The notes beneath the pieces are model-generated. The model was not told where the DNA came from. It worked only from the letters and a program-made list of their open reading frames with translations, and made no database searches. This document shows, piece after piece, positions 5,077-24,904 of a stretch of DNA of 64,000 nucleotides. The stretch is taken from NCBI RefSeq assembly GCF_027912415.1, contig NZ_CP115175.1, positions 2,170,001 to 2,234,000 on the forward strand, written 5' to 3'. The position numbers were made by a program, and so were the translations under genes. How positions within the stretch are numbered: position 1 is the first letter of the stretch; every line of letters begins with the position of its first letter. Origin of the DNA: Homoserinibacter sp. YIM 151385 (GTDB lineage: Bacteria; Actinomycetota; Actinomycetes; Actinomycetales; Microbacteriaceae).

Positions 5077-5093
5077 GTCACGATGATACGAAA

Positions 5094-6541: not shown

Positions 6542-6553
6542 TAGACATGTCTA
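6542..6553. promoter_or_regulatory. 12-bp palindrome TAGACATGTCTA before the acetyltransferase gene
   Basis: A perfect palindrome 20 bases before the likely start of the acetyltransferase gene. The inner ten bases, AGACATGTCT, recur as a perfect palindrome at 28153-28162, also in an intergenic stretch. It may be a site for a shared dimeric regulator. No such regulator is identified. Confidence 0.3.
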
Positions 6554-6573
6554 TGGCGGAAGGAGGGCACGGG

Positions 6574-7227: not shown

Positions 7228-7298
7228 GACGCCGCCGCCCGGCGGTCAGCGCCGAGCCCGCTCGTCTGAGCCGCTCCACGGACCGTCTCGATGCCCGC

Positions 7299-7316
7299 GT
7301 CATCCCCCCGGATGAC
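7299..7316. promoter_or_regulatory. Inverted repeat GTCATCC-cccc-GGATGAC upstream of the disrupted ABC gene
   Basis: Perfect 7-4-7 inverted repeat 57 bases before the ATG of the ABC ATPase gene. It could be an operator of that transporter. No regulator gene is adjacent, so the role is uncertain. Confidence 0.35.
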
Positions 7317-7372
7317 CCGGTTCGCCCCCGCGGCCGACGCCCCGTCCCGTCAGCCCGGCGGAAGCTGGGGGC

Positions 7373-7557
7373 ATGACCGACCACCAGACCTCCGTCCAGC
7401 CCGCCGCGGCCGCCGGCGGCCCCCGCCCCGTCGTGCTCGCGGCCCGCGGCCTCGCGAAGCGCTACGGCATGACGACCGCGCTCGCGGGCGTGAACCTGGA
7501 CGTCGCGGCCGGCGAGTCCCTCGCGATCATGGGCGCCTCCGGCTCCGGCAAGACCAC
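7373..7557 (+). pseudogene. 5' part of an ABC transporter ATPase gene, cut inside Walker A by the island
   Basis: The start (MTDHQTSVQPAAAAGG) and the first strands of a MacB/LolD-type ATPase are present up to the P-loop ASGSGKTT, after which host sequence ends and the frame closes within four codons (CDK, stop). The remaining 556 bases are at 19625-20180. Joining base 7557 to base 19625 gives an uninterrupted 246-residue ATPase reading GSGKTTLLHALAG at the junction, which shows that one gene was split precisely. As it stands the ATPase cannot be made, so the partner permease at 20177 should be inactive. Confidence 0.93.
7550..7557 (+). repeat. Left attachment-site core (attL), AAGACCAC
   Basis: Eight-base direct repeat shared with 19617-19624, lying exactly at the two ends of the inserted segment and within the Lys-Thr-Thr codons of Walker A. 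Short core identity is typical of large serine recombinases, which cross over at a central dinucleotide. Confidence 0.85.
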
Positions 7558-9669: not shown

Positions 9670-10747
9670 CGAGGGCCAATCTGAGCGGGGGGCGGGTGGC
9701 GGCAAATTCGGGTGCTGCGAGGTAGTGCCGCCGGAACGCGGCCTCCGTCATGCCCGCGAGGCGAGCGAGATCGTCGTCGGAGTAGTCGTGCTCGCTGCGC
9801 TGCAACGCGATGATCTTGTCGACAACCGAGGGGTTCTCCCGGGCGACATCCCCTGGCTCGCTGGTGCGCCAGCCGAGCTTTCCGAGCCGGACCTGAAACT
9901 CGCGGTACTGCCGGTCGCTGATCGTCTCCAGATCGTGGGCCCGCCGAATGAGCGCAGCCATCGACATGCCCCACTGGGTCTTCAATGCCATCAAGCGCCG
10001 GAAGTCACTGGTCGTCAGCCCTTCCAGCTTCTCTCGGATCTCGCCGGCCGGAGCCAGGAACTCACCGGCGAATATGTTCGCCTCGGCCTCCTGGCTATCG
10101 ACCGGAAGCGCGTGCATAGCGAGGTGGCCGAGCTCGTGCGCCACCGTGAACCGCAACCGATCGGCGGAGAGATCGGCGTTGACGAGCATCATCGGGGGCC
10201 GTTGCGAATCCTGCGGCCAGGTGCTGACCGCGTCTTGTCCCGTGGTGCCGAACGAGCGGAACACCACCACCACGCCCGCCGACTCGACGAGGCCGATCAG
10301 GTTCGCGATGGGGCCCGACGGCACATTCCATCGATACCGAAGCTCGCGGGCGACTTCGGCGGGCCCACGGCCCGGTAGCACTTCGATGCGCTCGAGTGTC
10401 CGCGCTGGCGCGAGCTCGATGCCATCGAGAAGCCCTTCGACACTGATCCGCGACAGGTGCGTCACGGCCTCGATGCGCTTCATCGTGCTCACGCTCATCG
10501 TGCTGGCCCGACGGCGGTGCAGGCAGGTGATCTCGATCGAAGGCAGGGCTGCGTTGTGCTCCAGCGACTCGGGACGGCAGTCGAGTGCCTCAGCCAGGCG
10601 CTGCAGGCGCTCGGGGTCGAGCTCGATCGCTCCCGTCTCCACCTTCGAGATGACGGCCTGGCTCATCGTCGCCCGCTCAGCGAGCTCCGTCTGCGTCCAC
10701 CCCCGCGCCTCGCGGAGGAGGGTAACCATCGACTGCATCCCGGCCAT
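9662..10747 (-). CDS. XRE-family regulator fused to an ImmA/IrrE zinc peptidase
   Basis: A 361-residue protein. Residues about 4-62 form an XRE helix-turn-helix (LREARGWTQTELAERATMSQAVISKVETG). Residues about 140-240 form an ImmA/IrrE-type (COG2856) metallopeptidase with HELGH at 204-208 and the downstream acidic helix EAEANIFAGEFL that usually gives the third zinc ligand. The ATG at 10747 has GGAGAG upstream. Proteins of this type cleave or sense repressors (ImmA of ICEBs1, IrrE/PprI) and also act as regulators or antitoxins of neighbouring genes. The 8-base overlap with the TGT-like gene implies that this protein controls or protects against it. Confidence 0.85.
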   Translation of the reverse strand: MAGMQSMVTLLREARGWTQTELAERATMSQAVISKVETGAIELDPERLQRLAEALDCRPESLEHNAALPSIEITCLHRRRASTMSVSTMKRIEAVTHLSRISVEGLLDGIELAPARTLERIEVLPGRGPAEVARELRYRWNVPSGPIANLIGLVESAGVVVVFRSFGTTGQDAVSTWPQDSQRPPMMLVNADLSADRLRFTVAHELGHLAMHALPVDSQEAEANIFAGEFLAPAGEIREKLEGLTTSDFRRLMALKTQWGMSMAALIRRAHDLETISDRQYREFQVRLGKLGWRTSEPGDVARENPSVVDKIIALQRSEHDYSDDDLARLAGMTEAAFRRHYLAAPEFAATRPPLRLALDE

Positions 10748-10867: not shown

Positions 10868-12154
10868 TCAAGCGCCAGGCGGTTGGGTCGGCAGGAACCC
10901 ACAGATGACCGCCCGCCGGAACGGCAGTGATGCCGCCCATCGATGATGGAAGTCAATCGCCTCGAGGCCGAAGATTCGGGCCCGGCGGTACGCGGTGAAC
11001 GCGAGCGCGCCATCGAGCAGCGCTCGCTCAAGTGGCTCGCGCGCTGCGAGGTACGCGGAGTGATCGAGATGTCCGGTGCCGAAGGCGGCAGCGAGAGCAG
11101 AGAGCCGTTGGTGCGCAAGACGAACGGCGGGAAGCAGATCGCGAGGAGAAGATAGGCACGGCGCGGCCGCGATCGTGTACTGCTCCAGCGTGACGGCGGC
11201 GACCTGGGCGTCCAGCAGGTCGGCGTCGAAGGACGGGCCGGGACATCTCGCGGTCGCGGTGCGACAGCCGTAGATCCGGCGTCCGAAGCGGGTCACCCCA
11301 GCGACCATCCGCCGACCGCATCGTCGGCAGCGCAGGATGCCGCCCAGCAGGCTGGTCGACAAGCGGCCGGCATCGCGCGGCGGGAGAAGTAGTCCCAGCT
11401 GGACGAGCGCCGACTCCTCGTCGGAGATGAGCCGCTCCCAGGCCGCGTCGATGGGTTTCGCGGCCGGGCGCTGGAAGCGCCGGTGATGGAGCCGGTCGCT
11501 GGAGAGGATCGCGACGATGGTTGTGGCATTCCAGCGGTCCGCTCGCGGGGCCGGCACGCCGTCCCCGGCCAACTCGTGAGCGATCGCGGTGTGGGAGAGG
11601 CCGATGAGGTAGTCGTCGACGATTCGGCGCACAATCCCGGACTGGAGCGGCTCGAGCGTGCCGTCGTTCCGGTAGCCGGAGTGGCTTCCGCCGTGCAGCA
11701 GCCCGCTTCCGGCTCGCTGCTGCTGGGCACGGGCGACGCGAGCGCCTCGGTGGGCGGACTCGTAGTTCGCGAACGCGACGAGCTGCCGCGCGAACAGTCG
11801 CCCTTCGTGCCGGTTCAGGTCGAACGAGCCGCCCTGGACGGCCTCGATCCGGACCGGGCTGGTGTCGAGCAGGTCCAGGAGCTGCTCGAGCTCGTTCGGG
11901 CGCCAGTAGAGCCGGTCGAGATGCCAGACGATCACGGTCACCGCCTGCGCGTCCCCGATCCGTTGCAAGAGCTGCTGGTAGCCGGGACGGGCTCGCTCCC
12001 CGTAGGCGGAGACGGCTTCGTCGACGAACTCGATCGTGCGGGTATAGCCGAGGCGGGCGGCGAGGGCGGTGCAATCCTCGCGCTGTTGCTGGATGGACGC
12101 GTGCTCGCTGGTGGCAGAGATTCGCAGGTAGATCAGGGCGGTCTCGGGCTGGAT
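10868..12154 (-). pseudogene. Large serine recombinase 2, without a standard start codon
   Basis: The frame encodes a complete large serine recombinase: catalytic domain with YLRIS (catalytic Ser), the CTALAARLGY and WHLDRLYWRP segments, a recombinase domain, a zinc ribbon (RCRRCGRRMVAG...YGCR) and a C-terminal helical part. Between the stop of recombinase 1 (12230-12232) and the YLRIS motif there is no ATG, GTG or TTG in frame; the first is a TTG at 11968, after the catalytic Ser. GGAG at 12161-12164 lies 6 bases before an ATC (12152-12154) followed by QPETALIYLRIS, so the original start was probably ATG mutated to ATC. It may be silent or use a rare start. Confidence 0.75.
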
Positions 12155-12229
12155 GGTAGGCTCCGGTGCCGCAGCGCACTCCTGGCCGCCACTCCGCTGT
12201 GGGACGCGAGGGTGCGTGGCGGCGCGAGG

Positions 12230-13678
12230 TCAGGACGTGTAGGTGATGCGGATCCGGGCAGGGTCGAAGCCGCGACCCGGGCGGCCAGGCGCGATGGTGA
12301 GCTTGCGGATCAGCGTTGTGATCACCTCACGTCGATCGGCTACGTCAAGACGCCGCCACCAGGAATCCAGGCCGGCAGGATCGCCGACCGGCACGGTCCG
12401 CAGCGCGACGGCGCCGGCGGCTGCGAGCTGGTGGTGTGCCGCTTGCAGCGCTTCCTCTGCCGCGCGTTGCCCGACCACGCGTTCACTTGAGGTGATGCGC
12501 CTTGCGACGTGATCTTCCTCGAGCAACGCGATCCGCTGGTTGATCCCCACGATCTGTTCCAGCAGCACACTGATCGGCGAGGTGTCGGAGGCAGCCCGGG
12601 GCCGCCCGAGCCGGTGGAGGATGCGCCTGGTGACCTCGTCGTCAAGCAACGGGGCGCTGATGCTCAGACCGCCCCGTTCCGGATGAGAAGGGTCCTTCTG
12701 GCAGACGTATCGGAGGGTTGGGTTCGCGCCGGGGGCGGATGTGTGGCCGGCGATGGTCAGGCCTGCACCGCACTTGCCGCACCGTGCGATCCCGCCCAAC
12801 AGGCTCGGCCGCGCCGTCGTGGTGCGGCGCCGGGCCGGGTCGGCGAGGATCGCACGAATCCGCGCCGTCTCTTCCGGGGTGATGATCGGCTCTCAATCAC
12901 CAGGACCGAGGATTTCCCGCCCGCCGGCGGGATCCGCGCGGGTGCCGGGGGAGTACGCGCGCTGCCCGGAGATGCGCGCGGAGGCCAGCAGGCTGCGCAC
13001 CGTGTAAGGGTGCCACAGCCCCGACGTGCCGCTCCCGGCGCGCAGCGGCGGGATCTGTGAGCGGTTCAGCCAGGCGGTGATCGACCGGATCGACTCGCCG
13101 GCGAGGAAGCGGTCGGCCATCTGCCGGATCACCGCCGCCTGCTCCGGGATGAGCACCCCGCCCGGCCCGTAGCCGTAGCGGGACGGCCCATGCCAGCGGC
13201 CCTGCTCCGCGAGACGCTGGTTCGCGCGTTTGACCCGATCGGACTTGTGTCCGGACTCGTAGGCGGCGATCGCGACGAGCTGCCTGGCCATCAGCCGGCC
13301 CTCGTTCGTGTTCAGATCGAACCCGCCTCCTTGCACCGACTCGATCCGCACCGGGTGATGCTCGACCAGATCGATGAGGCTCTCCAGCTCACGCGGCTGC
13401 CGGTAGAGGCGATCGACATGCCACACCACGATGTGCGTAACACCGCCCTCCACCTGCGCGATGAGGGCGTCATAGCCGGGGCGCCGGCCCCCGTCGAATG
13501 CCGAGACGTCGTTGTCGATGAATACCGGCGGATCATCGAAACCCAACCGCGCCGCCAAGGCCAGGCAGTCCTCCTGCTGGCGCAGCACCCCGCCACGGAC
13601 CCCGGCGCGATCCTGCGAGATCCGCAGATACACCGCCGCAGCGGCCCGTTCCGCCCTGTCCGGGTTCAAGTCGTTCAC
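12230..13678 (-). pseudogene. Large serine recombinase 1, interrupted by one in-frame TGA
   Basis: Starting at GTG 13678, the frame gives a catalytic domain (YLRIS, Ser21; LALAARLGF; WHVDRLYRQPRELE), a recombinase domain, then a TGA at 12893-12895 (codon 262). The same frame continues without shift into EPIITPEETARIRAIL, a zinc ribbon (CGKCGAG...YVCQ) and a coiled-coil tail ending at 12230. The context GPGD-stop-EPII matches the family phrase with Trp before EPI, so a TGG to TGA change is the simplest explanation. The start lies 4 bases after the nuclease-like gene, so it was transcribed with the right-hand cargo. A readthrough product cannot be excluded. Confidence 0.85.
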
Positions 13679-13682
13679 GTGA

Positions 13683-15011
13683 TCATGAGTCCGGTGCCCC
13701 GGTCTCTACCCCGATGACGATGCTACGGCCAGCGTCGAGAGCGCTTTGGACGACGGATACAAGGTCGTCGGTTGCCGTTCCGCGTGTCCCGATAAGTCCC
13801 GTGCTGACCAGCGCAGCGAAGGATGTGTTGCCCAGAGATCTCGCCTTGAGTGGTCCTTCTACGATGCGGGCGGCGCCTCTTTCGCCGTGCATGGACGCCA
13901 TGAGCGATTGAACATAGTCGGTGGGCACGTAGCTGCCCGGCATCAGCTTGAGATCGTTTACGTCGAATGCCGCATTTCGGCGGCAGAACTTGAAGTAGGT
14001 GACGGGTGCGCCCAGCCGGTAGTTCAAGTGGTTCGACGAGTCGAATGCGGCCTGCTGATGGATCGACTCCACTGCGACAAGCCGCTGGCGCTCGAGCTCG
14101 AATTGTTGGTCGGGGTAGTAGACCCACTCGGCGGCGCGGTGCTCCATCATCTTGTACTGGACGAGCACGAACGATTCGTTCGAGTGGTTGTAGTAGATGA
14201 GATCGGCGCCGGTTGCCTTTTCGATCGGACCTTTGTTTGCGTTCACCACAGTCAGCGTCCGCTGCCCGCTATGAAAGGTCATCGCCGCTGCGTGCTCTGT
14301 CTCGAGGCCAACCCAGTCCAGGAAGTTCCGGGCGTCCTTATCGATCACTTGGTCTTCAAGCTGATGAGCATCCGCAAGCCGGGCGAGAAAGGGGGCCGAG
14401 GAGGTCTCCCGCGACATGTATCGCAGGCCCCCTCGAAGATTGGTGCTGCCTCCGAAAATCTCCGTGGCGACCATCACAGCGTCGCGTTCCTGGAGAAGGA
14501 TGCGCCCTTCTGCAGCGCTTGGGGGCGTGAAGGGACGAACGGAATCAGACAAGAACCTCAGCCTCGCGCGGGTGGGCTCCGCGATTCGAAGAAGTCCGTC
14601 CCAAACCCGCTGCGAGGTTTTCGGCGACAGGAGTCGACCGTCGAGCCCCTCCTCGAAGACGCGCTTCTGGTCTGTCGTGAGATCGATCTCTGCTCGCAGT
14701 TCATCGACATCGAGCAAGAAGTCGAACATGATCAGCGGATCGAATGCATACCGTGTCTGCACGGTAGTGGCGCGACCCGCGGGTCGCATGACGCCGGCAC
14801 CCACGATGTAAGCCCCAGGCGACGGGGCGGCGCCCCAGTCGGAGTACTCCATCGCATCCGAGTCAGCGAGCACGATGCATAGCCGCACGCTGCCGGCACC
14901 AGGAACTTCATCCCGACGCAGGGCGACGGTCATGCGTTCCGACGACTGAGCGCGCCGGTGGAAGGCATCCAGCTCGGCGCTGTCCGCGACGCGATAAAGG
15001 ACGACGTTCAT
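13683..15011 (-). CDS. Island protein with a PD-(D/E)XK nuclease-like motif
   Basis: A 442-residue protein of no family I recognise overall. Around residues 258-290 it reads GPIEKATGADLIYY, then FVLVQYKMME. The order Glu264, Gly-Ala-Asp270 and Gln285-Tyr-Lys287 on neighbouring strands matches the D-...-(E/Q)xK core of PD-(D/E)XK nucleases (Mrr-like QxK form). The N-terminal 200 residues have mixed alpha/beta character and no known motif. It starts 6 bases after the HEPN-like gene with a TGAGGTG ribosome site and is the last cargo gene before recombinase 1. A nuclease effector role is inferred; a catalytic test would decide. Confidence 0.6.
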   Translation of the reverse strand: MNVVLYRVADSAELDAFHRRAQSSERMTVALRRDEVPGAGSVRLCIVLADSDAMEYSDWGAAPSPGAYIVGAGVMRPAGRATTVQTRYAFDPLIMFDFLLDVDELRAEIDLTTDQKRVFEEGLDGRLLSPKTSQRVWDGLLRIAEPTRARLRFLSDSVRPFTPPSAAEGRILLQERDAVMVATEIFGGSTNLRGGLRYMSRETSSAPFLARLADAHQLEDQVIDKDARNFLDWVGLETEHAAAMTFHSGQRTLTVVNANKGPIEKATGADLIYYNHSNESFVLVQYKMMEHRAAEWVYYPDQQFELERQRLVAVESIHQQAAFDSSNHLNYRLGAPVTYFKFCRRNAAFDVNDLKLMPGSYVPTDYVQSLMASMHGERGAARIVEGPLKARSLGNTSFAALVSTGLIGTRGTATDDLVSVVQSALDAGRSIVIGVETGAPDS

Positions 15012-15017
15012 GGCACC

Positions 15018-15524
15018 TCAGAGCTCAGGAAAGATCTCAGCCACGAGGTCGTGGGAGCGGCGAACGGAGGAAACGGTAACGACGATCGGAAAGGCTGGGG
15101 CAGTCATCGGGTGCGCAGCCATGTTCCTCAACTCTCGGGCAAACGTCAGCGTCTCCACTACATCGGGCTCAGGGTCAGTCTCTCGTTCGAAGCGTGCAAC
15201 TAGTCGGCTGAATGTGGTGTTCTTGCCCGCGGTGAAACGGTAACGAAGAGCGGCCTCGACAGCCTGCAAACTCTTCTCCATCGCGAGGGCCGCGAACTCG
15301 TAGTGGATAACGCTCGTTCCGAGCAGGTCGACGGACAGTTGAAGGAGCGCGGCTACATCGGCGGGGGTGCTCGTCGTGCGCGCGAAGGTTTGGGCGTGTA
15401 CTGACACCGTCTCAGGGGTCATGAAGATCGGGCCTGACTCATTGCCGGTCGCGACGATTGACGAGTGCGTGGCTCGTTGGTCGAGCGCGAAGGTCCAGGC
15501 TGTCGGGTGGGGGTCGAATGTCAT
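15018..15524 (-). CDS. Small HEPN-like protein
   Basis: A 168-residue mainly helical protein with ARELRNMAAHP at residues 129-139. Arg133-Asn134-x3-His138 fits the R-x4-6-H signature of HEPN domains (DUF4145/AbiU2-like), and an upstream helix with a conserved-type Glu-Lys (ALAMEKSLQAVEAALRYRF, 79-97) fits the family fold. HEPN proteins are usually RNases or partners of nucleotidyltransferases in defence and toxin-antitoxin systems. The ATG overlaps the stop of the Cys/His protein (ATGA). The long N-terminal part is beta-rich and unknown. Confidence 0.6.
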   Translation of the reverse strand: MTFDPHPTAWTFALDQRATHSSIVATGNESGPIFMTPETVSVHAQTFARTTSTPADVAALLQLSVDLLGTSVIHYEFAALAMEKSLQAVEAALRYRFTAGKNTTFSRLVARFERETDPEPDVVETLTFARELRNMAAHPMTAPAFPIVVTVSSVRRSHDLVAEIFPEL

Positions 15525-15748
15525 AAGGTGGCCTGCAGGTCGGTCTCAAGCGCGGCGAGGTCTTTCCGGGCGGTGGCGATGAACTTGAGCCCGCAGTCGA
15601 GGCAGTAGTGAAAGTTGTCGCGTTCGATCTTGATCACCAAGATCCGGTCGCCCTTGAGGAGGACGTGGCGCTTGTTCCCTTTGCAGTAGTGCTTCTTGCC
15701 GGCGACACCGGCAGTGAGCGACTTGAGCAGAGATCGTTGGCTACCCAT
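15521..15748 (-). CDS. 75-residue Cys/His (zinc-finger-like) protein
   Basis: The sequence has HYC at 20-22, a His at 28, and HYCLDC at 47-52 followed by GLKFI. Cys22, His28, Cys49 and Cys52 could bind one zinc, with a strand pair VLLKGDRILVIK between them, like a PARP-type or ribbon finger. It overlaps the helicase stop by 8 bases and the next gene by 4, so it is made in step with both. A nucleic-acid-binding adaptor for the helicase or nuclease is plausible; this is inference. Confidence 0.6.
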   Translation of the reverse strand: MGSQRSLLKSLTAGVAGKKHYCKGNKRHVLLKGDRILVIKIERDNFHYCLDCGLKFIATARKDLAALETDLQATL

Positions 15749-17525
15749 GACGCAGCTCCTCTTCCACGCTGTCGACGATCTTCGGCAGTTCGTTGATGAG
15801 ATGGTCCAGGTCTGCGGCGGAGTACTCGCTGCGGGTGGTTGCGCCGCTGGGGACCGTCTTCCTGATCCGGAGGTCGATCGCGGACTTCACGACCTTGAAG
15901 TTCTCACGGGTCCTATCGAAGTCGCGGCCGGCGTGCTTGAGGCTGTGCTTGGCGAGGAGTTTGCCGACGGCGGTCTTCACGAGCTCGTCGAGAAGCGCCC
16001 GCTTCGCCTTACGGGACGCCTGCTTGGTGGGGGTGATCCGCTGCAGGCGGTCGAACTGCTCACCCGTGCTGATACCGGCATCTTTCAGGACTGCGAGCGC
16101 CGCTGCGACCTTGGGGTCGGCGGTGAGCAGGGTGAGGCTCTCGAGCAGGACATCGTCTTGAGCGGTGATCACTGGGAGGCTGCCGCCTCCGCCGTTGCCT
16201 CCGGGGCAGGGTTCGCGGGTCGGGGTGGGTTCGATGAGGTCTTCGTCGATCAGGTTGGCGAAGAACGCCTGGTCCGCTTCGGCGAACTGCTGGAAGTCCG
16301 TCCAGACCCCGGTGATGTTGCCTCCAACATGGAAGACCACCACTCCGTCGTTGACGGTGTCGAAGGGGTCTACGCCGGGGATGGTACGCATGATGCGGCC
16401 GACGAACTGCATGAACGGGCCAAGGTTGCTGAAGATGCTGAACACCGCGGCGACGCTGAGGTACGGGTGATCGAAGCCTTCGCCAAGCTTCCGCACCTGC
16501 ACGATGACGTCGAGCTCGTGGTTGTCGAGCTTCTCGTGGATCCGTTCGTTCGCCTTCTCCGCGAGCTGGCTATGGACGAAGTCGGCACGCATCCCCAGTT
16601 CGCGGTACTTCGCGACGACCTGCTTGCAGTGCTCCATGTTGAGAGCGGAGGCGATGATCTTCAGGCGGGGCTGTCCGGTGGCCTCTCGCATCTCCTGAAG
16701 CTTGCGGATGGATGCTTCGGCGATCGTGGTGAGGGTGGCCTCGGAGCTGACGATGCTGCGTCGGAAGCCGGCATCCTCCTCGCCGAGACGGCGCACCTCA
16801 TCCAGAGAGACCTCGACCTCGGCGTCTCCCTCGTGGCGAACGTAGTGCAGCGTCGTCGGGTTCAGTCGGTATCCGTTGATGCGCTTGACGTACCCCTTCT
16901 CGACGGCCTTGGAGATCGGGTAGCTGTAGATGACCTCGCCGGTCATCACTTTCCCGTCTGCTCGAGCCGGGGTCGCGCTCACGTTCAGGATTCGCGCATC
17001 GGGGAACTTGCGTCGCAGCACGTCCCAGCTCTCGGCGACGTTGTGGTGGCCCTCGTCGAAGAGGATCAGGTCAAAGAAGTCGCTGGGGAGCTTCGCGAGC
17101 CACTTGTTGTTCTCGCGCTGCAACTGCTGGATATTCGTGACGACGATGTCGGCTTCCTCAAGGTCGCCGACGTTGCTCGAGGCCCCGCGAATCTCCGCGG
17201 GCTCAGGGAACGCCTCGCGGTCGAGAACCTTCCGCTTCGTGTAGAAGTAGTTCGGGTTGCTCGGTGTGAGGTCGCCAAGCAGCTGGTCGGCGATCTTCAG
17301 GTTCGGCGCAACCAGTAGCGTGCGCCTCGACTTCACGGCGAAGGGCGCAAGGGCGAGGAGTCCGGACTTGCCGCACCCGACTGGCAGGACGACCGACACC
17401 TCGCGGCCGTCGGCAGCTTGAAAGTCGTGGTTTTCGATCGCCTCATAGGCGAGGATCTGCGGCTCGCGCAGCTCGGGATTGCCGGCAACCGTGGGGTGCG
17501 CGACGACGTACTGGTCGGTCTTCAC
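15741..17525 (-). CDS. SF2 DExH-box helicase (restriction/defence type)
   Basis: A 594-residue protein with all main SF2 motifs: Q-like start REPQILAYEAI (20-30), Walker A PVGCGKS (48-54), motif Ia VAPNLKIADQ, motif Ib/TNIQQL, motif II DEGHH (157-161), motif III SAT (183-185), motif V GEGFDHP and motif VI QFVGRIMRT. It resembles the helicase subunits of type I/III restriction and of several defence systems; a C-terminal helical part of about 170 residues follows a Gly-rich hinge. The GTG at 17525 with GGAG upstream is the start, as the nearby ATG runs into a stop. It heads the overlapping run helicase - Cys/His - HEPN - nuclease-like. Confidence 0.85.
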   Translation of the reverse strand: MKTDQYVVAHPTVAGNPELREPQILAYEAIENHDFQAADGREVSVVLPVGCGKSGLLALAPFAVKSRRTLLVAPNLKIADQLLGDLTPSNPNYFYTKRKVLDREAFPEPAEIRGASSNVGDLEEADIVVTNIQQLQRENNKWLAKLPSDFFDLILFDEGHHNVAESWDVLRRKFPDARILNVSATPARADGKVMTGEVIYSYPISKAVEKGYVKRINGYRLNPTTLHYVRHEGDAEVEVSLDEVRRLGEEDAGFRRSIVSSEATLTTIAEASIRKLQEMREATGQPRLKIIASALNMEHCKQVVAKYRELGMRADFVHSQLAEKANERIHEKLDNHELDVIVQVRKLGEGFDHPYLSVAAVFSIFSNLGPFMQFVGRIMRTIPGVDPFDTVNDGVVVFHVGGNITGVWTDFQQFAEADQAFFANLIDEDLIEPTPTREPCPGGNGGGGSLPVITAQDDVLLESLTLLTADPKVAAALAVLKDAGISTGEQFDRLQRITPTKQASRKAKRALLDELVKTAVGKLLAKHSLKHAGRDFDRTRENFKVVKSAIDLRIRKTVPSGATTRSEYSAADLDHLINELPKIVDSVEEELRHG

Positions 17526-17571
17526 TTACTGCTCCGAACATGATGGTGATGGGTTGGTGTTTATGCTGGGA

Positions 17572-17599
17572 GCGGGACCGCCCGCCAAGGCGGCCCCGC
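17572..17599 (-). terminator. G+C-rich hairpin between the small basic gene and the helicase gene
   Basis: Eleven-base arms (17572-17582 and 17589-17599) with one mismatch and a six-base loop. No run of T follows on the minus strand, so it may be an attenuating or RNA-stabilising hairpin rather than a full terminator, splitting the operon into two expression levels. Confidence 0.45.
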
Positions 17600-17624
17600 T
17601 TGGTTCACGCGAAGTCTCAGCCGC

Positions 17625-17750
17625 TCAGCTCTTGTTCTTGTGGACCACCGTCGTTCTCGGGTTGCGCTTCGCGTAGCTGAGCTTCACGAAGCGTCCCGAG
17701 ACGGCGCTGCGCGCGTGGCCGCGTGACGCGGCCGGTCTTCCCTTGGGCAT
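17625..17750 (-). CDS. 41-residue strongly basic protein
   Basis: Short frame MPKGRPAASRGHARSAVS... ending VVHKNKS, with 12 Arg/Lys and no acidic residue. The ATG at 17750 is preceded by AAAGAGGTGA at ribosome-site spacing, which supports real translation. It lies 37 bases after the kinase gene and 99 before the helicase gene on the same strand. The charge suggests binding to nucleic acid or ribosomes, or a small antitoxin-like or kinase-substrate role; Ser/Thr residues are frequent. No family name can be given. Confidence 0.6.
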   Translation of the reverse strand: MPKGRPAASRGHARSAVSGRFVKLSYAKRNPRTTVVHKNKS

Positions 17751-17787
17751 GTCTGTCACCTCTTTCCTTGAGGTCGTGCGAGGGTCA

Positions 17788-19335
17788 TCAGCTGGCCTCG
17801 CTTATCCAGTCGGCGATGCCGATCCGGATCGCCGGCGGCAGCGTGCGAACGGTGAAGTCGGTGATCGACCAGGCGACCTGGCTGCGGCTCACCGAGCGCA
17901 ACCCTTCGATGGCGGCCATCGACATCTCTTCCGACTTGACGTCCTGCAGGACCGAGACCAGCACGTCCCGCACGTGCCAACGGTTGTGGTCCGGGCCAAG
18001 GACGGCGAGGGCAGCGACCGCCATGCGCAGGATGCTGGAGTCGCCGGTGACATCGACGGCGCGGCGCATGAAGTTCGCGAGCACGTCGCAGTACTCGAAC
18101 GAGAAGCCCGTGCGCTTGACGTAGTCGGTGAACCGCTCGAACAGACGACGGAACGCGCCACGGTCCCGGTTCCAGAGGAACTCGATGGACGACGAGGTGC
18201 ACCACGGCAGCACGCGGCTGAGCGCCTTCATGTCGTCCTCGTCGGATTCGTCGAGAAGAGTGGCCCACTCGAGCATCTCGATCAGATCGGCCGGTGTCGT
18301 TGACGGGCTCAGCATCCGGTCGCGGAGCCGTTCAGCGGTCTGTTCGCGGGATTCCCAGTTCTCGTACTCCTGGTGAGTGCCGAGCGAACGCTCGACGGCC
18401 TCGAGGAACTCGGCGACAGAACCGTACCGGCTGGCAGGGTTGTTCGCGGTGGCGCGCTCGACGACGGGTCGCAGGGGCCCTGCCGCCATCTCGGTGTTCA
18501 CCGGGTACTCCTGGGTCACGAGTTCCTGCAGGATCTTGCCGAGGCTGTAGACGTCCGAGCGGTGATCGGCGCTGCGCGCTCGCGCCCACTGCTCGGGGGC
18601 CGCGTAGACCCAGGAGCCCATGCCTGCCCGGAGCGTCGATGTCAGAGGTGTGGTGCCCCGCTCGGCCTCAACCGCCAGGCCGAAGTCGGAGACGGCCCAT
18701 TCCCCGCTCTCGAGACGGAGCACGTTCGCCGGCTTCAGATCGCGGTGGTAGACGCCGTTGCTGTGGATGTATGTGAGTCCGGCGCAGATCTGGCGCATGA
18801 TGTCCACGATCAGTGGTGGGTTGCCGTCGACCTTCTCGATGAAGTCGGCCAGGCTGCCCTGCGCCAACGGCATCGCGTACCAGACGTCCTGCTCGTCGGT
18901 CTCGCCCTGCGCGATCACGGAGATCACGTTGGGATGGGTAAGCCCTTCCAGCAGCCGTAGTTCTCGCTTGAAGCGGCTGATCGCCTCCGGGTCCACGGTT
19001 GCCGTGTCCCGCAGGACCTTGACCGCAACGAGGTTCCCGGTCTTCCGGTCGGTTGCGCGGAAGACGTCGGCGAATCCGCCGCTTCCGATCGCCGGAAGTT
19101 CGAGGATGAACCGTCCACCCAGGGTCCGGACGGTGAGGTCGGACTTCGGGCGTCCGGCTTTCCTCTGCCGCAGGCCGGATCCGTTCCAGGCCTTGACGAC
19201 GTCCAGATCCCAAATGGGGCCTTGAGCGATCTCACCGACCGCATCCGGGAAGTCGGGTCGCTGGCGCAGCGCGGCGATCCGCTGGGGCGTCACTCCCAGT
19301 TCTTCCGCGACCTCGCTCAGTCCGCCGAGCCTCAT
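17788..19335 (-). CDS. Ser/Thr protein kinase with N-terminal DNA-binding helix-turn-helix
   Basis: A 515-residue cytosolic protein. Residues about 4-52 are an excisionase/MerR-like helix-turn-helix (LSEVAEELGVTPQRIAALRQRPDFP, then WDLDVVKAW). Residues about 75-340 are a Hanks-type kinase: glycine loop IGSGGFADVF (83-92), VAVKVL with Lys106, HRDLKPANVL (197-206), DFGL (217-220), APEQW (246-250). The last 170 residues are helical and unknown. There is no membrane segment, unlike PknB-type kinases. The start at 19335 has GGGAGGAG upstream; a longer frame reaching 19563 runs through the probable promoter. DNA-binding kinases occur in some defence systems; here it could sense infection or repress the operon. 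Confidence 0.85.
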   Translation of the reverse strand: MRLGGLSEVAEELGVTPQRIAALRQRPDFPDAVGEIAQGPIWDLDVVKAWNGSGLRQRKAGRPKSDLTVRTLGGRFILELPAIGSGGFADVFRATDRKTGNLVAVKVLRDTATVDPEAISRFKRELRLLEGLTHPNVISVIAQGETDEQDVWYAMPLAQGSLADFIEKVDGNPPLIVDIMRQICAGLTYIHSNGVYHRDLKPANVLRLESGEWAVSDFGLAVEAERGTTPLTSTLRAGMGSWVYAAPEQWARARSADHRSDVYSLGKILQELVTQEYPVNTEMAAGPLRPVVERATANNPASRYGSVAEFLEAVERSLGTHQEYENWESREQTAERLRDRMLSPSTTPADLIEMLEWATLLDESDEDDMKALSRVLPWCTSSSIEFLWNRDRGAFRRLFERFTDYVKRTGFSFEYCDVLANFMRRAVDVTGDSSILRMAVAALAVLGPDHNRWHVRDVLVSVLQDVKSEEMSMAAIEGLRSVSRSQVAWSITDFTVRTLPPAIRIGIADWISEAS

Positions 19336-19362
19336 GCTCCGCTCCTCCCATGATCGAAATTG

Positions 19363-19382
19363 TTGTCCATATGACAAGTATA
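19363..19382 (-). promoter_or_regulatory. Probable promoter with operator TTGTC-catat-GACAA before the kinase gene
   Basis: On the minus strand TATACT (19382-19377) is a good -10 box, directly followed by the 5-5-5 inverted repeat at 19363-19377, which would cover the transcription start 28-40 bases before the kinase ATG. A repressor bound here would block the promoter. The helix-turn-helix of the kinase itself is the obvious candidate. Confidence 0.5.
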
Positions 19383-19616
19383 TCACGGAAATGGTTTGGT
19401 TATGATCAACTATTAGTGAATCGAGTCGAAGCTCACGGGTGATTGCCCGAACCAGGTCGTTGGCCCGTGGGCGGAGGGCTCGCTGCCGCGCCCGTTCAGT
19501 GGGCTCGCGCGGAGGCGAGTGGAGGCGTAAAGCAAGCGTCCATGCGGCCGGGCGGAGCCACATAAACCCAGATCAAGCAGTACTTCTGGGGGAAAAATGT
19601 AGGGGGAATTGCAGCG
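19383..19616. other. Right end of the island, no gene seen
   Basis: About 230 bases between the kinase promoter and the right attachment core. No supported gene. The last 60 bases include purine runs (GGGGGAAAAATG, AGGGGGAA) that should form the attachment half-site arm recognised by the recombinase. Confidence 0.5.
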
Positions 19617-19624
19617 AAGACCAC
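19617..19624 (+). repeat. Right attachment-site core (attR), AAGACCAC
   Basis: Second copy of the 8-base direct repeat at 7550-7557. Host coding sequence resumes directly after it (CCTGCTCCACGCG, reading L-L-H-A) and continues the ATPase gene. Confidence 0.85.
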
Positions 19625-20180
19625 CCTGCTCCACGCGCTCGCCGGCATCACGGTGCCCGACGCGGGCGGCATCCGCCTCGCCCTCCCCGGCGCGCAGGTG
19701 CCGGACGTCGCCTCCCTCTCCGACCGCGAGCGCTCGCGCCTGCGTCGCGAGGCCTTCGGTTTCGTCTTCCAGCAGGGCTTCCTCGTGCCCGAGCTCACCG
19801 CGATCGAGAACGTCGCCCTCGCGCTCATGGTGACCGGCATCCGCCGTGCCGAGGCGGAGCGCCGCGGCGGCGAGTGGCTCGCCCGCCTCGGTCTCGGCGG
19901 CATGGAGGATCGGCGCATCGGCCAGCTCTCCGGCGGCCAGGCGCAGCGCGTCGCCATCGCGCGAGCCCAGGTGACCGGCGCCGGCGTCGTCTTCGCCGAC
20001 GAGCCGACGGGCGCGCTCGACTCGCGCACCTCGGGCGAGGTCATGGACGCGCTGCTCGGCGCCACCACCGGCGACGGGCGAACGCTCGTCGTCGTCACCC
20101 ACGACGCGGCGGTCGCGGCGCGCTGCGACCGCACCGTGCACATGGCCGACGGCCGCATCCTCGACGAGGTGTCGGCGTGA
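19625..20180 (+). pseudogene. 3' part of the split ABC transporter ATPase gene
   Basis: Continues the frame broken at 7557. It has the Q-loop (FVFQQGFLVPELTA), ABC signature LSGGQAQRVAIARA, Walker B VVFADEPTGALD and the H-loop VVTHDAAVA, as in MacB/LolD/FtsE-type exporters. It ends in a GTGA overlap with the permease gene. Without its own start and Walker A it cannot give a working ATPase. Confidence 0.93.
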
Positions 20181-21517
20181 TCGCCCGCCTGGCCTGGATG
20201 CTGGGGCGGCCGGGGCGCGGATCGCTCGGCCTCGCCGTCCTCCCCGTCGCCGCCTTCGCGGTGACGACGACGCTCATCATGACGGTGCTCGGCGGCGCCC
20301 AGGCCTTCTGGGGCGGCGGCGCCGGGGACGGCGCCGGGGACGAGCGCGTCATCTACGCCTTCCTCGCGGCCCTCGCGCTCGCGATCCTCGTCGTCCCGCT
20401 GCTGTCGCTCGGCGCCTCCGCCGCACGGCTCGCGACGCGCCGCCGCGACGACCGGCTCGCCACACTGCGCCTCCTCGGCGCGAGCACCGGCACGGTCTCC
20501 GCGATCACCGTCCTCGAGACGGGCGCGCAGGCGCTCATCGGCGGGCTGCTCGGCTGGGCGGGCGCGCTGGCGCTGACGCCCGCGATCGGCCTCATCCACT
20601 TCCGCGGCGCGCCGCTCACGGCAGAGGCCGTCATCCTGCACCCGGGGATCGCGACGCTCGTGGTGCTCGGGGTGTCGGTCGTCGGCCTCGCGAGCGCCAT
20701 GCTCGGCCTCCGGCGCGTGTCGCTGTCGCCCCTGGGCGTGCGGATGCGGAGCGACGCCGAGCGCTCGAGCTGGCCGGTCGCGGTCGTCGGCCTCGCGGTG
20801 CTGGCGCTCGCGGTCACGGCGACGAGCATGATCGGCGGGCTCGTGTCGGGGGCCGCGATGACGGTCGGCATCGGCGCCTTCGCGGCGACGCTCGCCGTGC
20901 TCGATCTGGTGGGGCCGTGGATGCTGCGGATCGTCGCGCGCGTCCGCCTCCGCCGTGCCTCGACGCCGGCCCGCCTGCTCGCGGCCCGCCGCATCCTCGA
21001 CTCCCCGAAGGACGCCTGGCGTCAGGTCTCGGGCGTCGCGATGGCGACGTTCACGGCCGTGTTCACGGGCATCGGCGTCGCCGTGCTCGAGCTGGCGGGC
21101 GGCATCGACCCGAGCGATCCGGAGGGCGGGATGCTGCTCGTCGACATCCGGACGGGCGTCATCGTGACGGTCGTCGGCGCGTTCCTCACGGTGGCGTGCT
21201 CGGTGGGCGTCAACCAGGCGGCCGGCATCCTCGACCGGCGCGAGCTCAACGTGAGCCTCGACCGCATGGGGGTGCCCCTGTCGACGGCGGATGCGGCGCG
21301 GCGTGGGGCGGTCCTCGTCCCGCTGCTCGCGACCTCCGTCTGGGCGGCGGCCTCGGCGGCGATCGTCGTGTTCCCGCTCGCCGGGATCGCGCTCATCTTC
21401 AACACGGGCACGCTGCTGCTCGTGGTGTCGTCGATCGGCGTCGGGGTCCTGCTCGTGGTGGGAGCGATCCGCGCCACGCGGCCGCTGCTGCGGGCGACCG
21501 TCGCCTCCGCCGGCTGA
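20177..21517 (+). CDS. FtsX/MacB-like ABC transporter permease
   Basis: A 446-residue membrane protein starting at a GTG inside the ATPase stop codon. It shows two FtsX-like cores, each with several membrane helices, and cytoplasmic loops beginning ARLATRRRDDRLATLRLLGAS and ARLLAARRILDSPKDAWRQVSG, the coupling-helix type of the family. With its ATPase it would form an exporter or membrane mechanotransmission complex of unknown substrate. The island in the ATPase gene also separates it from its native promoter 5' of 7373, so expression may be low. Confidence 0.88.
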   Translation: MIARLAWMLGRPGRGSLGLAVLPVAAFAVTTTLIMTVLGGAQAFWGGGAGDGAGDERVIYAFLAALALAILVVPLLSLGASAARLATRRRDDRLATLRLLGASTGTVSAITVLETGAQALIGGLLGWAGALALTPAIGLIHFRGAPLTAEAVILHPGIATLVVLGVSVVGLASAMLGLRRVSLSPLGVRMRSDAERSSWPVAVVGLAVLALAVTATSMIGGLVSGAAMTVGIGAFAATLAVLDLVGPWMLRIVARVRLRRASTPARLLAARRILDSPKDAWRQVSGVAMATFTAVFTGIGVAVLELAGGIDPSDPEGGMLLVDIRTGVIVTVVGAFLTVACSVGVNQAAGILDRRELNVSLDRMGVPLSTADAARRGAVLVPLLATSVWAAASAAIVVFPLAGIALIFNTGTLLLVVSSIGVGVLLVVGAIRATRPLLRATVASAG

Positions 21518-21580
21518 GGAGCGCCGCCGCAGCCGCCGCAGCCGACGCGTCCTGGCGCACCCGCCCGATACAGTCGGTGC

Positions 21581-21910
21581 ATGGCAGCGCAGGACCCCAC
21601 CACCGCCGAGCAGGACGCCGCCCGCGCGCAGCTCCTCGACATCCGCTCGAGCATCGACAACATCGACGCGGCCCTCGTGCACCTCCTCGCGGAGCGCTTC
21701 AGGTTCACGCAGCGGGTCGGCCTCCTCAAGGCGACTCACGGCCTCCCGCCGAGCGATCCGGACCGCGAGCGCGTGCAGATCGCGCGGCTCCGCTCGCTCG
21801 CGGAGGCGGCGCAGCTCGACCCGGCCTTCGCCGAGAAGTGGTTCAACTTCGTGGTCGCGGAGGTCATCCACCACCACGAGCGCCTCGCGGCGGAGCAGCC
21901 GGAGGCCTAG
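21581..21910 (+). CDS. Chorismate mutase (AroQ class)
   Basis: A 109-residue all-helical protein with the AroQ plan: first helix RSSIDNIDAALVHLLAERFRFTQRVGLLKA with the catalytic-type Arg and Lys positions, a middle helix starting DPDRERVQIARL, and a last helix ending VVAEVIHHHERLAAE. It converts chorismate to prephenate for Phe/Tyr synthesis. No signal peptide, so it acts in the cytosol. Stand-alone gene, with a repeat array downstream. Confidence 0.9.
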   Translation: MAAQDPTTAEQDAARAQLLDIRSSIDNIDAALVHLLAERFRFTQRVGLLKATHGLPPSDPDRERVQIARLRSLAEAAQLDPAFAEKWFNFVVAEVIHHHERLAAEQPEA

Positions 21911-21940
21911 CCGCCGCTCCGGGGGCCTCTCCCCTTCTCA

Positions 21941-22162
21941 CCCCTTCCGAAATGCAGGATGAACCCGCCCGAGACGGCCCGTCGCGACCGCGATGACGGC
22001 ACCTGGCGTCTCCCCGTCCTGCATTTCGGAAGTGGCGATGCCCGGGGCAGACCCCGCATCCCCCGTCCCCTTCCGAAATGCAGGATGGCGGCGATCTGCA
22101 GCCGGACGGGGCACCGGGGCGACGGGGAGACTGCGCGATCGGTCCTGCATTTCGGAAGGGGT
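21941..22162. repeat. Four alternating inverted copies of CTTCCGAAATGCAGGA
   Basis: Between the convergent chorismate mutase and metalloprotease genes the motif lies forward at 21941-21960, inverted at 22017-22035, forward at 22067-22087 and inverted at 22143-22162. Any adjacent pair can fold into a 16- to 20-bp hairpin. It is different in sequence from the arrays at 1540 and 54641. Probable bidirectional terminator or REP-like element. Confidence 0.65.
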
Positions 22163-22181
22163 CGGGTGGCCGCCGCTCCGG

Positions 22182-24746
22182 TCAGCCGCCGATCGTCGCG
22201 GCGGGCGAGGTGCTCCGCCGGAAGCTCTCGTCGCCGAGGTAGGTGACCGCGATCTCGCGGTTCGCGGCGTCGCGCGTCGGCACGTGCACCGTGATGACGC
22301 CGCCGCTGCCCGGCTCGAGGGCGGCGCGCGCGAGCGTGCGGCCCTCGGCCGTGAAGAGCAGCACGCCCGTCGGGGCGAGCCCCCGCCAGCCGCCGATACG
22401 GGCCCGCAGGGTCGCGTAGGCGGCGGTCTGCTCGACGACGTCGAGGGATGCCGTGGTGCTCCCGCGTCCGACGACGAGCGGCACGGGGGCCGAGTCGAGC
22501 GCGAGCCCGGTGCCCGCCTGCGTCCAGCGCACGGCGAGCTCGCGCGTGCCGGCGGCGAGCCCCGCGGGAAGCGGCGCGGCGATCGTGCCGTCCTCGTCGA
22601 GCGTCCAGGTGCCCGGGTAGAGGCCGCCGGTCGCGGGGTCGAGGAAGCGCACCGTGCCCGCGGCCGGGAGGTTGCCGGTGTCGGCGATGATGACGGCCTC
22701 GCCCTCGGCATCCTGGCCCGAGGCGGCGCCCTCGGCGGTGAGCATGAGGCGCACGCGATGGTTCTGCCGCTCGCTCCAGCCGCTCGTCCAGCGGATCGCG
22801 GGCGTCTCGGCGACGCCGTCGGCGAAGCCGGCGCGGCTCGCGGTGACGCGGGCGGTGATCTGCCGCCCGCTGTCGGCGGCGGTCGGGGTGAGGCTCGTGC
22901 CCGTCGCGCGCAGCTGGCCGTCGACGTACCAGCGGGTCGTCGTCGTCACGCCGGGGAGGCGGAAGCGCGCGCGCACCACCGTGAGCCGCGCGCCGTCCTT
23001 CGCGATGGCGGCCCCGAGCGGCGCCGCGCCGAGCTTCGGCTCGCGGCTCAGCTCGACGCGAACGCGGGCGCTCGTCGTGCCCGACCACTCGACATCCAGG
23101 CGGATCCGGCCGGAGCGGCTCGCCCAGCTCCCGTCGGTGTCGATCGCGAGGTCGCGGTAGCCCTGGCGGCTCGTCGCGTGCTGCGAGGTGAGCGCGAGGG
23201 TGTCGGGTGCGGTGCTGCGGCTCGGGTCGAGCTTGAGGATGCGGATGCCGTCGCCGAAGCGGGTCGCGTAGCCGTCCTCGGTCGCGCAGGATCCCTTGCC
23301 GCAGAAGCCGGCGGCATCCCGCATGGCCTTGATGCCGGCATCCTGCCCGACCGGGGTCCGCAGCTCGACCCAGTAGAGGACGCCGGTGCCGGGCTCGACG
23401 ATGCGGAGCACGCGCGGCCCGCTGCCGGTGCCGATGGCGCGGATCGTGCGGGAGGCGACGGCGTCGCTCTGGCCGGCGGGGAGCGCGAGCACCTCGCGCG
23501 AGTCGTCGCCGAGGAAGCCGAGACGGTCGAGGCCGGGGGCGGAGAGCGAGGGGATGCGGGGCTGGTCGGCGATCGAGAAGCCCATGACGTCGTACTGGTC
23601 GAGGTAGGGGTCGACGCGGCAGCCGGTCGGCGCCCAGGGGCCGGCGCCGTCGCGCGTGCCCTCGAGGGTGTCCGGTATCTCGCAGGTGTGGACGTTCGCG
23701 TGGCCGAGCCCGATGTTGTGCCCGAGCTCGTGCGCGAGGGTGTGGGCGTCGTAGCGGGTGCCGACGAGCGACTGGATGAGGCCGCCGTCGTCGCTCGTCT
23801 CGCCGAGCGTGCCGAGGCCGACGAAGCCGAGCGAGCGCCGGCAGCTGTCGCCGCCGTCGGGGGTGAGGACGACGAGGTGGCGTCCCGTGCCGGGGGCGAA
23901 GAAGCGGTCGGGGTCGGCGTTGAAGCGCGGGCCCGCCTCATCCCACCAGCGCGTGACGCTCGTCATGCCCGAGCCGCAGTCGATCGCGGAGGTGTAGCGG
24001 GTGAGGCCGGCGATGCCGACGCGGCTGATGACGCCGCCCGACTGCGCGGTCCAGTAGTCGCCGACCTGCGCGACGAGCGAGCGGACGGCGGCGTCGGCGA
24101 AGCTGCCGTGCGCGGCGCCGCCCTTCGGCCCGACGACGGCGATGTACAGGCGGTGCTCGAGGGCGGGCGCGCGCTGCGCGGGAGCCGGCTCGGCGACCTG
24201 CGCGGCGACGACGGGCAGCGGCTCGGCCTGCTCCTCCGCGACGGCGGCGGCGACGGCGCCGGCCTCGTCCTGCTCGGTGAGCGGCTCGTCCTCGGCGGCG
24301 GACTCGGCGGCGGCCTCCTCGGCCCTCTCGCCGGCCTCCGCGAGGAGCGCGGCGGGGAGCGCGAGCTCGAGCGCGACGACGGCGCCGGCGCCGGCCCCGG
24401 CGGGCGCGGCCTCGAGGCGGATGCGGGTGCCCTCCTCCGTGAGGACGGACGCGACCGGCTGGTCGGTCTCGGGCAGGTGCTCGTGGCCGTCGTCGCCGAG
24501 CTCGGCCTCCGGGAGGATCAGCTCGAGGCGTCCGCGGACGGCGAGGCGCGGCTCCCCCTCGTGCCGGGCGGCGTCGTCCTCGAGGGAGGCGGGTGCGGCG
24601 TCGTGGGCGTGCTCGGCGAGCATGCCGGCCGCGGCATCCGTCTCCACCGGGTCCGGGTCCGGGGACGCCTGGGCGCCCGCCGCCGAGAGCAGCGTCGCGA
24701 CGACGAGCGCGACGGCGCCCGCCGAGATGGCGGCGACTGCCCGCAT
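22182..24746 (-). CDS. Secreted zinc metalloprotease (metzincin) with Ig-like domains
   Basis: An 854-residue protein with a Sec signal peptide (MRAVAAISAGAVALVVATLL...AQA). An acidic Ala/Glu-rich propeptide-like region of about 180 residues follows, then a catalytic domain with the zinc motif HELGHNIGLGH (HExxHxxGxxH) and the Met-turn YDVMGFS, and C-terminal beta-rich repeats (GTVRFLDPATGGLYPG; GVLLFTAEGRTLA) like bacterial Ig domains. Three to four Cys pairs fit an extracellular protein. It resembles gametolysin/M11-type proteases. Substrates are unknown. The start has GGGGGA directly upstream. Confidence 0.85.
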   Translation of the reverse strand: MRAVAAISAGAVALVVATLLSAAGAQASPDPDPVETDAAAGMLAEHAHDAAPASLEDDAARHEGEPRLAVRGRLELILPEAELGDDGHEHLPETDQPVASVLTEEGTRIRLEAAPAGAGAGAVVALELALPAALLAEAGERAEEAAAESAAEDEPLTEQDEAGAVAAAVAEEQAEPLPVVAAQVAEPAPAQRAPALEHRLYIAVVGPKGGAAHGSFADAAVRSLVAQVGDYWTAQSGGVISRVGIAGLTRYTSAIDCGSGMTSVTRWWDEAGPRFNADPDRFFAPGTGRHLVVLTPDGGDSCRRSLGFVGLGTLGETSDDGGLIQSLVGTRYDAHTLAHELGHNIGLGHANVHTCEIPDTLEGTRDGAGPWAPTGCRVDPYLDQYDVMGFSIADQPRIPSLSAPGLDRLGFLGDDSREVLALPAGQSDAVASRTIRAIGTGSGPRVLRIVEPGTGVLYWVELRTPVGQDAGIKAMRDAAGFCGKGSCATEDGYATRFGDGIRILKLDPSRSTAPDTLALTSQHATSRQGYRDLAIDTDGSWASRSGRIRLDVEWSGTTSARVRVELSREPKLGAAPLGAAIAKDGARLTVVRARFRLPGVTTTTRWYVDGQLRATGTSLTPTAADSGRQITARVTASRAGFADGVAETPAIRWTSGWSERQNHRVRLMLTAEGAASGQDAEGEAVIIADTGNLPAAGTVRFLDPATGGLYPGTWTLDEDGTIAAPLPAGLAAGTRELAVRWTQAGTGLALDSAPVPLVVGRGSTTASLDVVEQTAAYATLRARIGGWRGLAPTGVLLFTAEGRTLARAALEPGSGGVITVHVPTRDAANREIAVTYLGDESFRRSTSPAATIGG

Positions 24747-24904
24747 GTTCCCCCCATGCGCACGAGGCCGGACCCCCTCCGGCGTCTCGCGCCCGTCCAT
24801 GCTCCCGCAGCGACACGCCGGCGCGTGATCCCCAGTCCGGGGGCATGGCCGGTGTACGGGGTGCGGGGGCGCCCGCCGCCGGAACCCGACGACGGCACCG
24901 GCGA

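Follow-up and report, generated by a model that had tools for sequence, protein, structure and literature searches.

The subject of this report is a set of six genes at one end of a mobile island in Homoserinibacter sp. YIM 151385, within a stretch of 64,000 nucleotides (contig NZ_CP115175.1, positions 2,170,001 to 2,234,000; hereafter the window). The conserved core of this set is two genes, encoding a superfamily 2 (SF2) helicase and a small zinc protein that follows it directly. A first-pass annotation, made from the sequence alone, had proposed a candidate six-gene defence operon; what recurs is the two-gene core, and the kinase, HEPN and nuclease genes vary by locus. The zinc protein, whose importance that annotation missed, is the most informative part of the set, being the helicase's constant partner and having a predicted fold like that of the PARP fingers. 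Our preferred reading, which we hold with slightly less than even confidence and partly by analogy, is that the genes form an accessory, layered cassette defending against foreign DNA, in which finger and helicase would be the sensor, the kinase the control, and the nuclease and HEPN-like protein the effectors. The six genes, in the order in which they are read, are:

17788..19335, minus strand: protein of 515 aa with an excisionase-like helix-turn-helix (HTH), a Ser/Thr protein kinase domain (Pfam Pkinase) and a C-terminal region of unassigned kind
17625..17759, minus strand: basic peptide, 44 aa, GTG start, function not assigned
15741..17525, minus strand: SF2 (ResIII/XPB-like) helicase, GTG start, Pfam ResIII; core gene
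15521..15748, minus strand: zinc (Cys/His) protein, 75 aa, PARP-finger-like fold predicted from a model and Foldseek; core gene
15018..15524, minus strand: HEPN-like protein, RNxxxH (R133/H138)
13683..15011, minus strand: nuclease-like protein of PD-(D/E)XK type, QxK variant (D270, Q285 and K287 invariant)

The evidence for the core is the constancy of the pairing. The zinc protein lies directly behind the helicase in all 21 loci found through the helicase, down to a helicase identity of 34-36%. These loci (L002-L010 and L021-L032) comprise five from the genome-contig scan, two from whole genomes of the order, ten from IMG/VR and four on plasmids; the plasmid loci (L007-L010) were chosen from 188 helicase-matching plasmid records, and two of them already listed a small gene under the match. 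The window itself (L001, L020, L033) and the loci picked via the zinc protein (L015-L019) are excluded from the count, and sets nearly duplicate over the match (L002/L003, L025/L032, L026/L027) are retained. Pairing was read with a zinc-protein profile that eight of the 21 loci had helped to build; tblastn with only the window protein as query also finds these eight, and the remaining 13, among them L003, a near copy of L002, had no part in the profile. In one locus, L021/L060, the zinc-protein match is partial, covering about half of the protein. With starts as we assigned them, the two frames overlap in 18 of the 19 loci measured, by 8 bases in ten and by 11 in six. The pair is found in actinobacteria and in alpha- and gammaproteobacteria, also on plasmids of about 6 kb, and 20 plasmids match the zinc protein at E ≤ 0.01.

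The helicase half of the pair is readily recognized. It matches Pfam ResIII (5.2e-24) and Helicase_C (1.8e-07), a sequence search of solved structures puts the XPB-like XPBII first (4.5e-15), and SF2 motifs I, II, III and VI are all present, with K53, DEGHH at 157, SATP at 183, EGFDH at 349 and GRIMR at 376. In a divergent helicase of the family (L060:273-2330) a MerR HTH is fused to the N-terminus, which recalls the HTH of the window's kinase.

The zinc protein is the less familiar half. Its putative ligands C22, H28, C49 and C52 (C-x5-H and C-x2-C, in the order C,H,C,C) are strongly constrained positions, and in an AlphaFold model built on 13 sequences (predicted local distance difference test, pLDDT, 88.9; predicted template modelling score, pTM, 0.71) the second ligand pair adjoins a long helix. 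In a Foldseek search of the PDB, fingers of PARP-1 or DNA ligase III make up 19 of the top 20 matches (probability 0.69-1.00; root-mean-square deviation 1.4-3.3 Å, and at most 2.0 Å over about 55 columns in 14 of the 19), and lower-ranked matches include SH3 and RING-complex chains. In a viral structure library the best match (E 0.013) is nameless, and the 50 matches shown include two zf-PARP proteins and one PARP-type protein (probability 0.57-0.90). Several points count against so close a kinship, and with it against the sensor that we propose: the Foldseek E-values are 0.24 and worse, none being below 0.001; zf-PARP (PF00645) is weakly detected in 3 of 21 zinc-protein members (best E 0.0079, not significant), and the Churchill zinc family in 4 of 21 at a better E-value (0.0014); a PF00645 search of the own genome at E ≤ 1 does not find the zinc protein; and the PARP ligand order, which we take to be CxxC...HxxC (C,C,H,C), is unlike that of the zinc protein. 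Across 149 actinobacterial genomes PF00645 has matches at E ≤ 1 in 13, none above cut-off, and no zinc-protein member reaches the curated zf-PARP cut-off of 39.3 bits. In view of the weak Foldseek E-values, the non-significant family matches and the ligand order, we term the protein PARP-finger-like only, as a prediction of fold, without counting it among the zf-PARP proteins. Assignment to zf-PARP or to Churchill was considered and neither was accepted, as the sequence matches are too weak. On a Zymomonas plasmid (L015:5813-7222) the annotation breaks the helicase into pieces and the zinc protein is without its first cysteine, which suggests joint decay of the two.

Around this core the other genes are arranged in layers. 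The window and each of the five relatives with a helicase more than 84% identical (L002-L006) combine kinase, helicase and zinc protein, and this trio is an actinobacterial cassette; the kinase is 86-99% identical in the five. The basic peptide is in the window and in three of these relatives (detected by tblastn in L002-L004; L005 and L006 are without a tblastn match). In the proteobacterial and IMG/VR loci, the helicase/zinc pair stands without kinase, HEPN or nuclease gene. HEPN and nuclease genes follow the pair only in the window, in L002 (Compostimonas) and in L003 (Microbacterium), so that the four-gene run from helicase to nuclease, which the first-pass annotation had expected to be conserved, recurs in two relatives as one nearly identical block and lacks its last two genes in the other three. 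An 8.5-kb segment, window 10902-19398, which runs from upstream of the kinase into the second of two recombinase genes, is 93.4% identical to L002 and to L003; overall, 12959 of 19782 positions agree between these two loci, and the shared block thus sits in different surroundings. In the other three relatives DNA similarity ends at window positions 15521 (L004), 15537 (L006) and 15540 (L005), and the zinc-protein gene ends at 15521. All three end points fall no more than 20 bases from where that gene ends, which identifies HEPN and nuclease as an addition behind a finished kinase-helicase-zinc cassette.

Much else in the first-pass annotation stood. The gene boundaries were confirmed, and the frame coordinates agree with six same-strand genes, of which the last four are joined by overlaps and a short gap: kinase and peptide are 28 bases apart and peptide and helicase 99, helicase and zinc protein overlap by 8 and zinc and HEPN-like protein by 4, and 6 bases separate HEPN and nuclease genes. 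Its domain assignments agree with ours (Pkinase 1.1e-40, ResIII 5.2e-24, a HEPN-type RNxxxH, and nuclease residues D270, Q285 and K287), and the residues that it had singled out are in place, namely DEGHH, intact at 157 in the helicase; K106 of the kinase, intact; R133/H138 of the HEPN-like protein, with RNxxxH kept across three further relatives; and D270/K287 of the nuclease, invariant together with Q285 in all aligned rows. Its view that the set lies outside described systems also agrees with profile searches of Pfam, NCBIfam, PHROGs and PADLOC, which file it in none; in these same libraries the nuclease-like, HEPN-like and zinc proteins have no significant match.

Between the window and L002, the ratio of nonsynonymous to synonymous substitution rates (dN/dS) is 0.023 for the kinase, 0.067 for the zinc protein, 0.080 for the helicase, 0.137 for the nuclease, 0.245 for the HEPN-like protein and 0.32 for the basic peptide (44 codons only). 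The cassette genes are under purifying selection, and the changes between the two copies are mainly silent, beyond chance.

The kinase has, besides its Pfam match, PADLOC kinase matches up to 4.7e-53, and its catalytic motifs K106, HRD (D199), DFG (D217) and APE are present; its first 65 residues match PHROG 597 (DNA binding, 1.1e-6) and, weakly, PHROG 66 (excisionase). Seventeen plasmids have stretches related to the basic peptide, and the organism names of 14 are mycobacterial.

The nuclease-like protein is probably a DNA-cutting enzyme, an activity predicted from its conserved residues. E219, D226, E264, D270, Q285 and K287 are invariant in ten of ten aligned rows and fit the catalytic set D...(D/E/Q)xK, QxK being a form of the PD-(D/E)XK site. 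The rows are the window, L002 and eight plasmid proteins, two of which (from Pseudomonas) are nearly the same protein, one of them shortened; relatives were found on nine plasmid records at 27.6-33.6% identity, and one (H3, a near copy of H2) was omitted. An IMG/VR scan with the alignment finds relatives in two contigs and a scan with the protein alone finds none; there is no match among phage records at E ≤ 1e-5, none in Pfam at E ≤ 1, and chance matches only among solved structures. Relatives of the nuclease (L012, L034-L037) adjoin AAA/OLD-like ATPases with UvrD genes, HipA, DUF6119 and restriction genes, and these neighbours suggest that they constitute a separate defence family.

The HEPN-like protein is probably an RNA-cutting enzyme, again a predicted activity. 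Its RN-x3-H is conserved in three relatives (L042, L014, L043) and fits the Rx4-6H catalytic motif. The protein itself has no HEPN profile match in the Pfam scan; two relatives match DUF4145, a HEPN family, at 3.2e-4 and 0.087, both below cut-off, and an IMG/VR scan with the protein alone finds no relative. At L061:5552-7893 the gene that immediately precedes that of a QSK-motif AIPR protein, at a distance of 158 bases, encodes a HEPN relative, and the two adjoin a D12 methylase and a weakly DpnII-like gene. This locus is an independent case of a HEPN protein beside a QxK-type nuclease.

The helicase/zinc pair is rare and patchy. Among 396 genomes of the order, 3 have the helicase at E ≤ 1e-60, and among 396 of the phylum 1 has it at E ≤ 1e-80, the own genome being included in both counts; of the phage records, 710 match the helicase and in none does the match reach 80% of its length, and blastn finds no DNA like the pair of a Klebsiella plasmid in E. 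coli genomes. As for neighbours, L005 has a SMODS/AGS_C (CBASS) cyclase (PADLOC 1.5e-161), SLATT, a NACHT protein and a PD-T4-5-like gene, and L004 has DUF4238 and a PDC-M36A match; the defence setting proposed in the first-pass annotation finds some support in context, in the defence families that flank some related cassettes. PADLOC names seven of the ten neighbours of L004-L006 that were scanned, two of them weakly. Plasmid loci L016 and L017 adjoin DpnII and BsuBI/PstI restriction genes, and L007-L010 and L018 carry mainly plasmid and toxin-antitoxin genes. Directly behind the cassette in L006 (10944-14019) lie a P-loop kinase-adenylosuccinate synthetase fusion, DUF7002 and a MazG-like protein, possibly a nucleotide-based system. 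In the open-access literature, covered by titles and beginnings of abstracts with a word check of PMC10853773, PMC12839542 and PMC13092281, the helicase/zinc pair was not recognized; subscription papers are outside this scope.

How might such a cassette work? In the layered-defence reading, the zinc protein would bind aberrant DNA, i.e. nicks, free ends or gaps arising from phage or plasmid entry, and would bring the helicase to it or activate the helicase there. The actinobacterial HTH-kinase ahead of the pair, with the basic peptide in some copies, probably controls the pair's expression or activity, and the QxK nuclease and HEPN-like protein, added behind the pair here and in two relatives, would serve as DNA-cutting and RNA-cutting effectors. 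We draw this sequence of sensor, helicase and effector by analogy with Hachiman, in which HamB is the sensor of DNA damage and switches on the nuclease HamA (PMC12278908). A broader version, of a bacterial immune core on mobile elements, is possible: a free-standing PARP-like finger would recognize broken or incoming DNA and load a dedicated SF2 helicase, with interchangeable effectors behind and a kinase in front. We put it forward as a doubtful but attractive generalization.

Other observations pull away from layered defence. HEPN and nuclease are absent from three of the five close relatives, the AlphaFold model of the HEPN-like protein is poor (pLDDT 44.5, three sequences), and the ten neighbours of L004-L006 were chosen for their defence-like look, with no control set. 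Additionally, neither helicase nor zinc protein is present in any of the ten loci with nuclease relatives or the three with HEPN relatives, nor at a Streptomyces plasmid locus with a kinase relative at 50% identity. These last results favour another account and are what bring our confidence in layered defence below one half: the kinase-helicase-zinc cassette, the HEPN gene and the nuclease gene could be separate defence genes stacked in a mobile hotspot, with only their transcription in common. The AAA/OLD-like, HipA, DUF6119 and UvrD neighbours of the nuclease relatives are in keeping with such stacking; the overlapping and closely spaced frames, the identical order at 93.4% DNA identity in the window and two genera with differing flanks, and the second HEPN beside a QxK-type nuclease in L061 argue against it, and on balance we consider it unlikely, if still a serious contender.

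Two further accounts would remove defence altogether. The helicase and zinc protein might serve the replication, repair or maintenance of the element that carries them, as the helicase's overlap with a rep (Replicase/PriCT) gene would have it, seen in two small plasmids of enterobacteria, one of them typed Col(Ye4449); this overlap too speaks against our reading, and the pair is frequent on small mobilizable plasmids (14 of the 20 plasmids found via the zinc protein are typed mobilizable). Yet with rep and helicase together as query, 1432 plasmids match somewhere and only 12 hold at least 80% of it, and 59 of the 60 matches listed cover the rep part only, in a blastn search that a more distant helicase would escape. 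These counts weaken a replication role, and on enterobacterial plasmids the pair is cargo; it also occurs in actinobacterial genome contigs and next to defence genes, and we judge the maintenance role quite improbable. More improbable still is a toxin-antitoxin-like pair of the PsyrTA/RqlHI type, which would bring its benefit through plasmid addiction, the helicase being the toxin and the small protein the antitoxin. The overlap of a large gene with a small one on small plasmids would suit it, as would a weak PADLOC match of the helicase to PsyrT (3.6e-4), but the small gene comes second and is strongly constrained at its zinc-ligand positions, and the PsyrT match is limited to helicase residues 274-381 and weaker than eight others.

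The mobile island claimed in the first-pass annotation is there. It is about 12 kb long, splits an ABC-ATPase gene, and has the same 8-base repeat, AAGACCAC, at both ends. Its other features are:

7550..7557, no strand: left island end, core AAGACCAC in the Walker-A codons of the split ABC-ATPase gene
19617..19624, no strand: right island end, identical core AAGACCAC; the second ABC-ATPase half begins here
12230..13678, minus strand: large serine recombinase 1, interrupted by a single in-frame stop near 12893; the gene is open in both L002 and L003
10868..11968, minus strand: large serine recombinase 2, its listed frame beginning within the resolvase domain

In translation, the left half of the ABC-ATPase closes with ...GASGSGKTT near position 7558 and the right half opens with KTTLLHALAG... 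at 19617; in three genomes of the same genus both window flanks match a single open frame, at positions that adjoin. The G+C content is 0.656 in the island, against 0.76 (1-7550) and 0.748 (19617-32000) in the flanks. The insertion point falls exactly within the Walker-A codons, and a recombinase target in so widely conserved a motif could permit insertion into many hosts. Given the stop in recombinase 1 and the start of the recombinase 2 frame inside its resolvase domain, the copy in the window may be immobile. At window 8569-10747, on the same island, an XRE/IrrE protein matching PADLOC RmrA (1.9e-57) overlaps a 378-aa family-less protein, and we take the two to be possibly a RosmerTA-like pair.

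Comparison with known systems places each component near something familiar and the combination apart. The kinase shares its domain with the defence-island Ser/Thr kinases PD-T4-6, Stk2 and MAD6 of PADLOC, but differs in its N-terminal HTH, its own C-terminal region and its operon with helicase and zinc protein. The helicase-kinase interplay of P. aeruginosa, which involves a UvrD-type helicase and prophage kinases (PMC4410645), serves here only as a reminder that mobile helicases and kinases can act together. The best PADLOC match of the helicase is PbeA of PbeABCD (1.2e-15, residues 65-384), which is a helicase fused to an HKD nuclease and accompanied by a CxC ABC ATPase and a DndE cognate (PMC10853773), whereas the six proteins here have no HKD or ABC-ATPase match in the Pfam scan. 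The HEPN-like protein resembles the DUF4145-group HEPN endoRNases in its RNxxxH motif and in its helicase and nuclease neighbourhood; HEPN fusions with restriction nucleases and SF-II helicases have been described on several occasions, DUF4145 being listed as fused to both (PMC3710099), whereas here it is a separate gene whose product has no HEPN profile match of its own.

The nearest functional model is Hachiman (HamA nuclease and HamB helicase; PMC12278908), with which the set shares the pairing of a helicase with an effector nuclease. It differs in that a separate zinc protein is the helicase's fixed partner and the nuclease is optional. Additionally, none of the 11 PADLOC families matching the helicase at E ≤ 1 is named for Hachiman, in a library that presumably includes HamB models, the nuclease-like protein likewise has no Hachiman-named PADLOC match at E up to 1, and its ten-row family has no DUF1837 match at E ≤ 0.1. 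Guards of this helicase-nuclease type raise a general question; how is abnormal DNA distinguished from normal? In this set sensing is probably the task of a protein of its own, 75 residues long and with a predicted fold amenable to experiment, which adjoins the helicase in each locus examined, and the layered design of core pair, kinase and added HEPN and nuclease illustrates how effectors may be attached to a sensor. Compared with zf-PARP, the predicted fold looks similar, at weak Foldseek E-values, and no sequence match is significant, and the zinc protein is a stand-alone bacterial protein beside a helicase. Zinc fingers of PARP-1 and DNA ligase III bind DNA breaks. Those of PARP-1 bind both single- and double-strand breaks (PMC3094755). 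If the zinc protein does bind DNA breaks, prokaryotic immunity would be linked to the eukaryotic break-detection finger, and if the broader version that we propose is true, such a core would be the prokaryotic counterpart of eukaryotic break sensing through PARP fingers.

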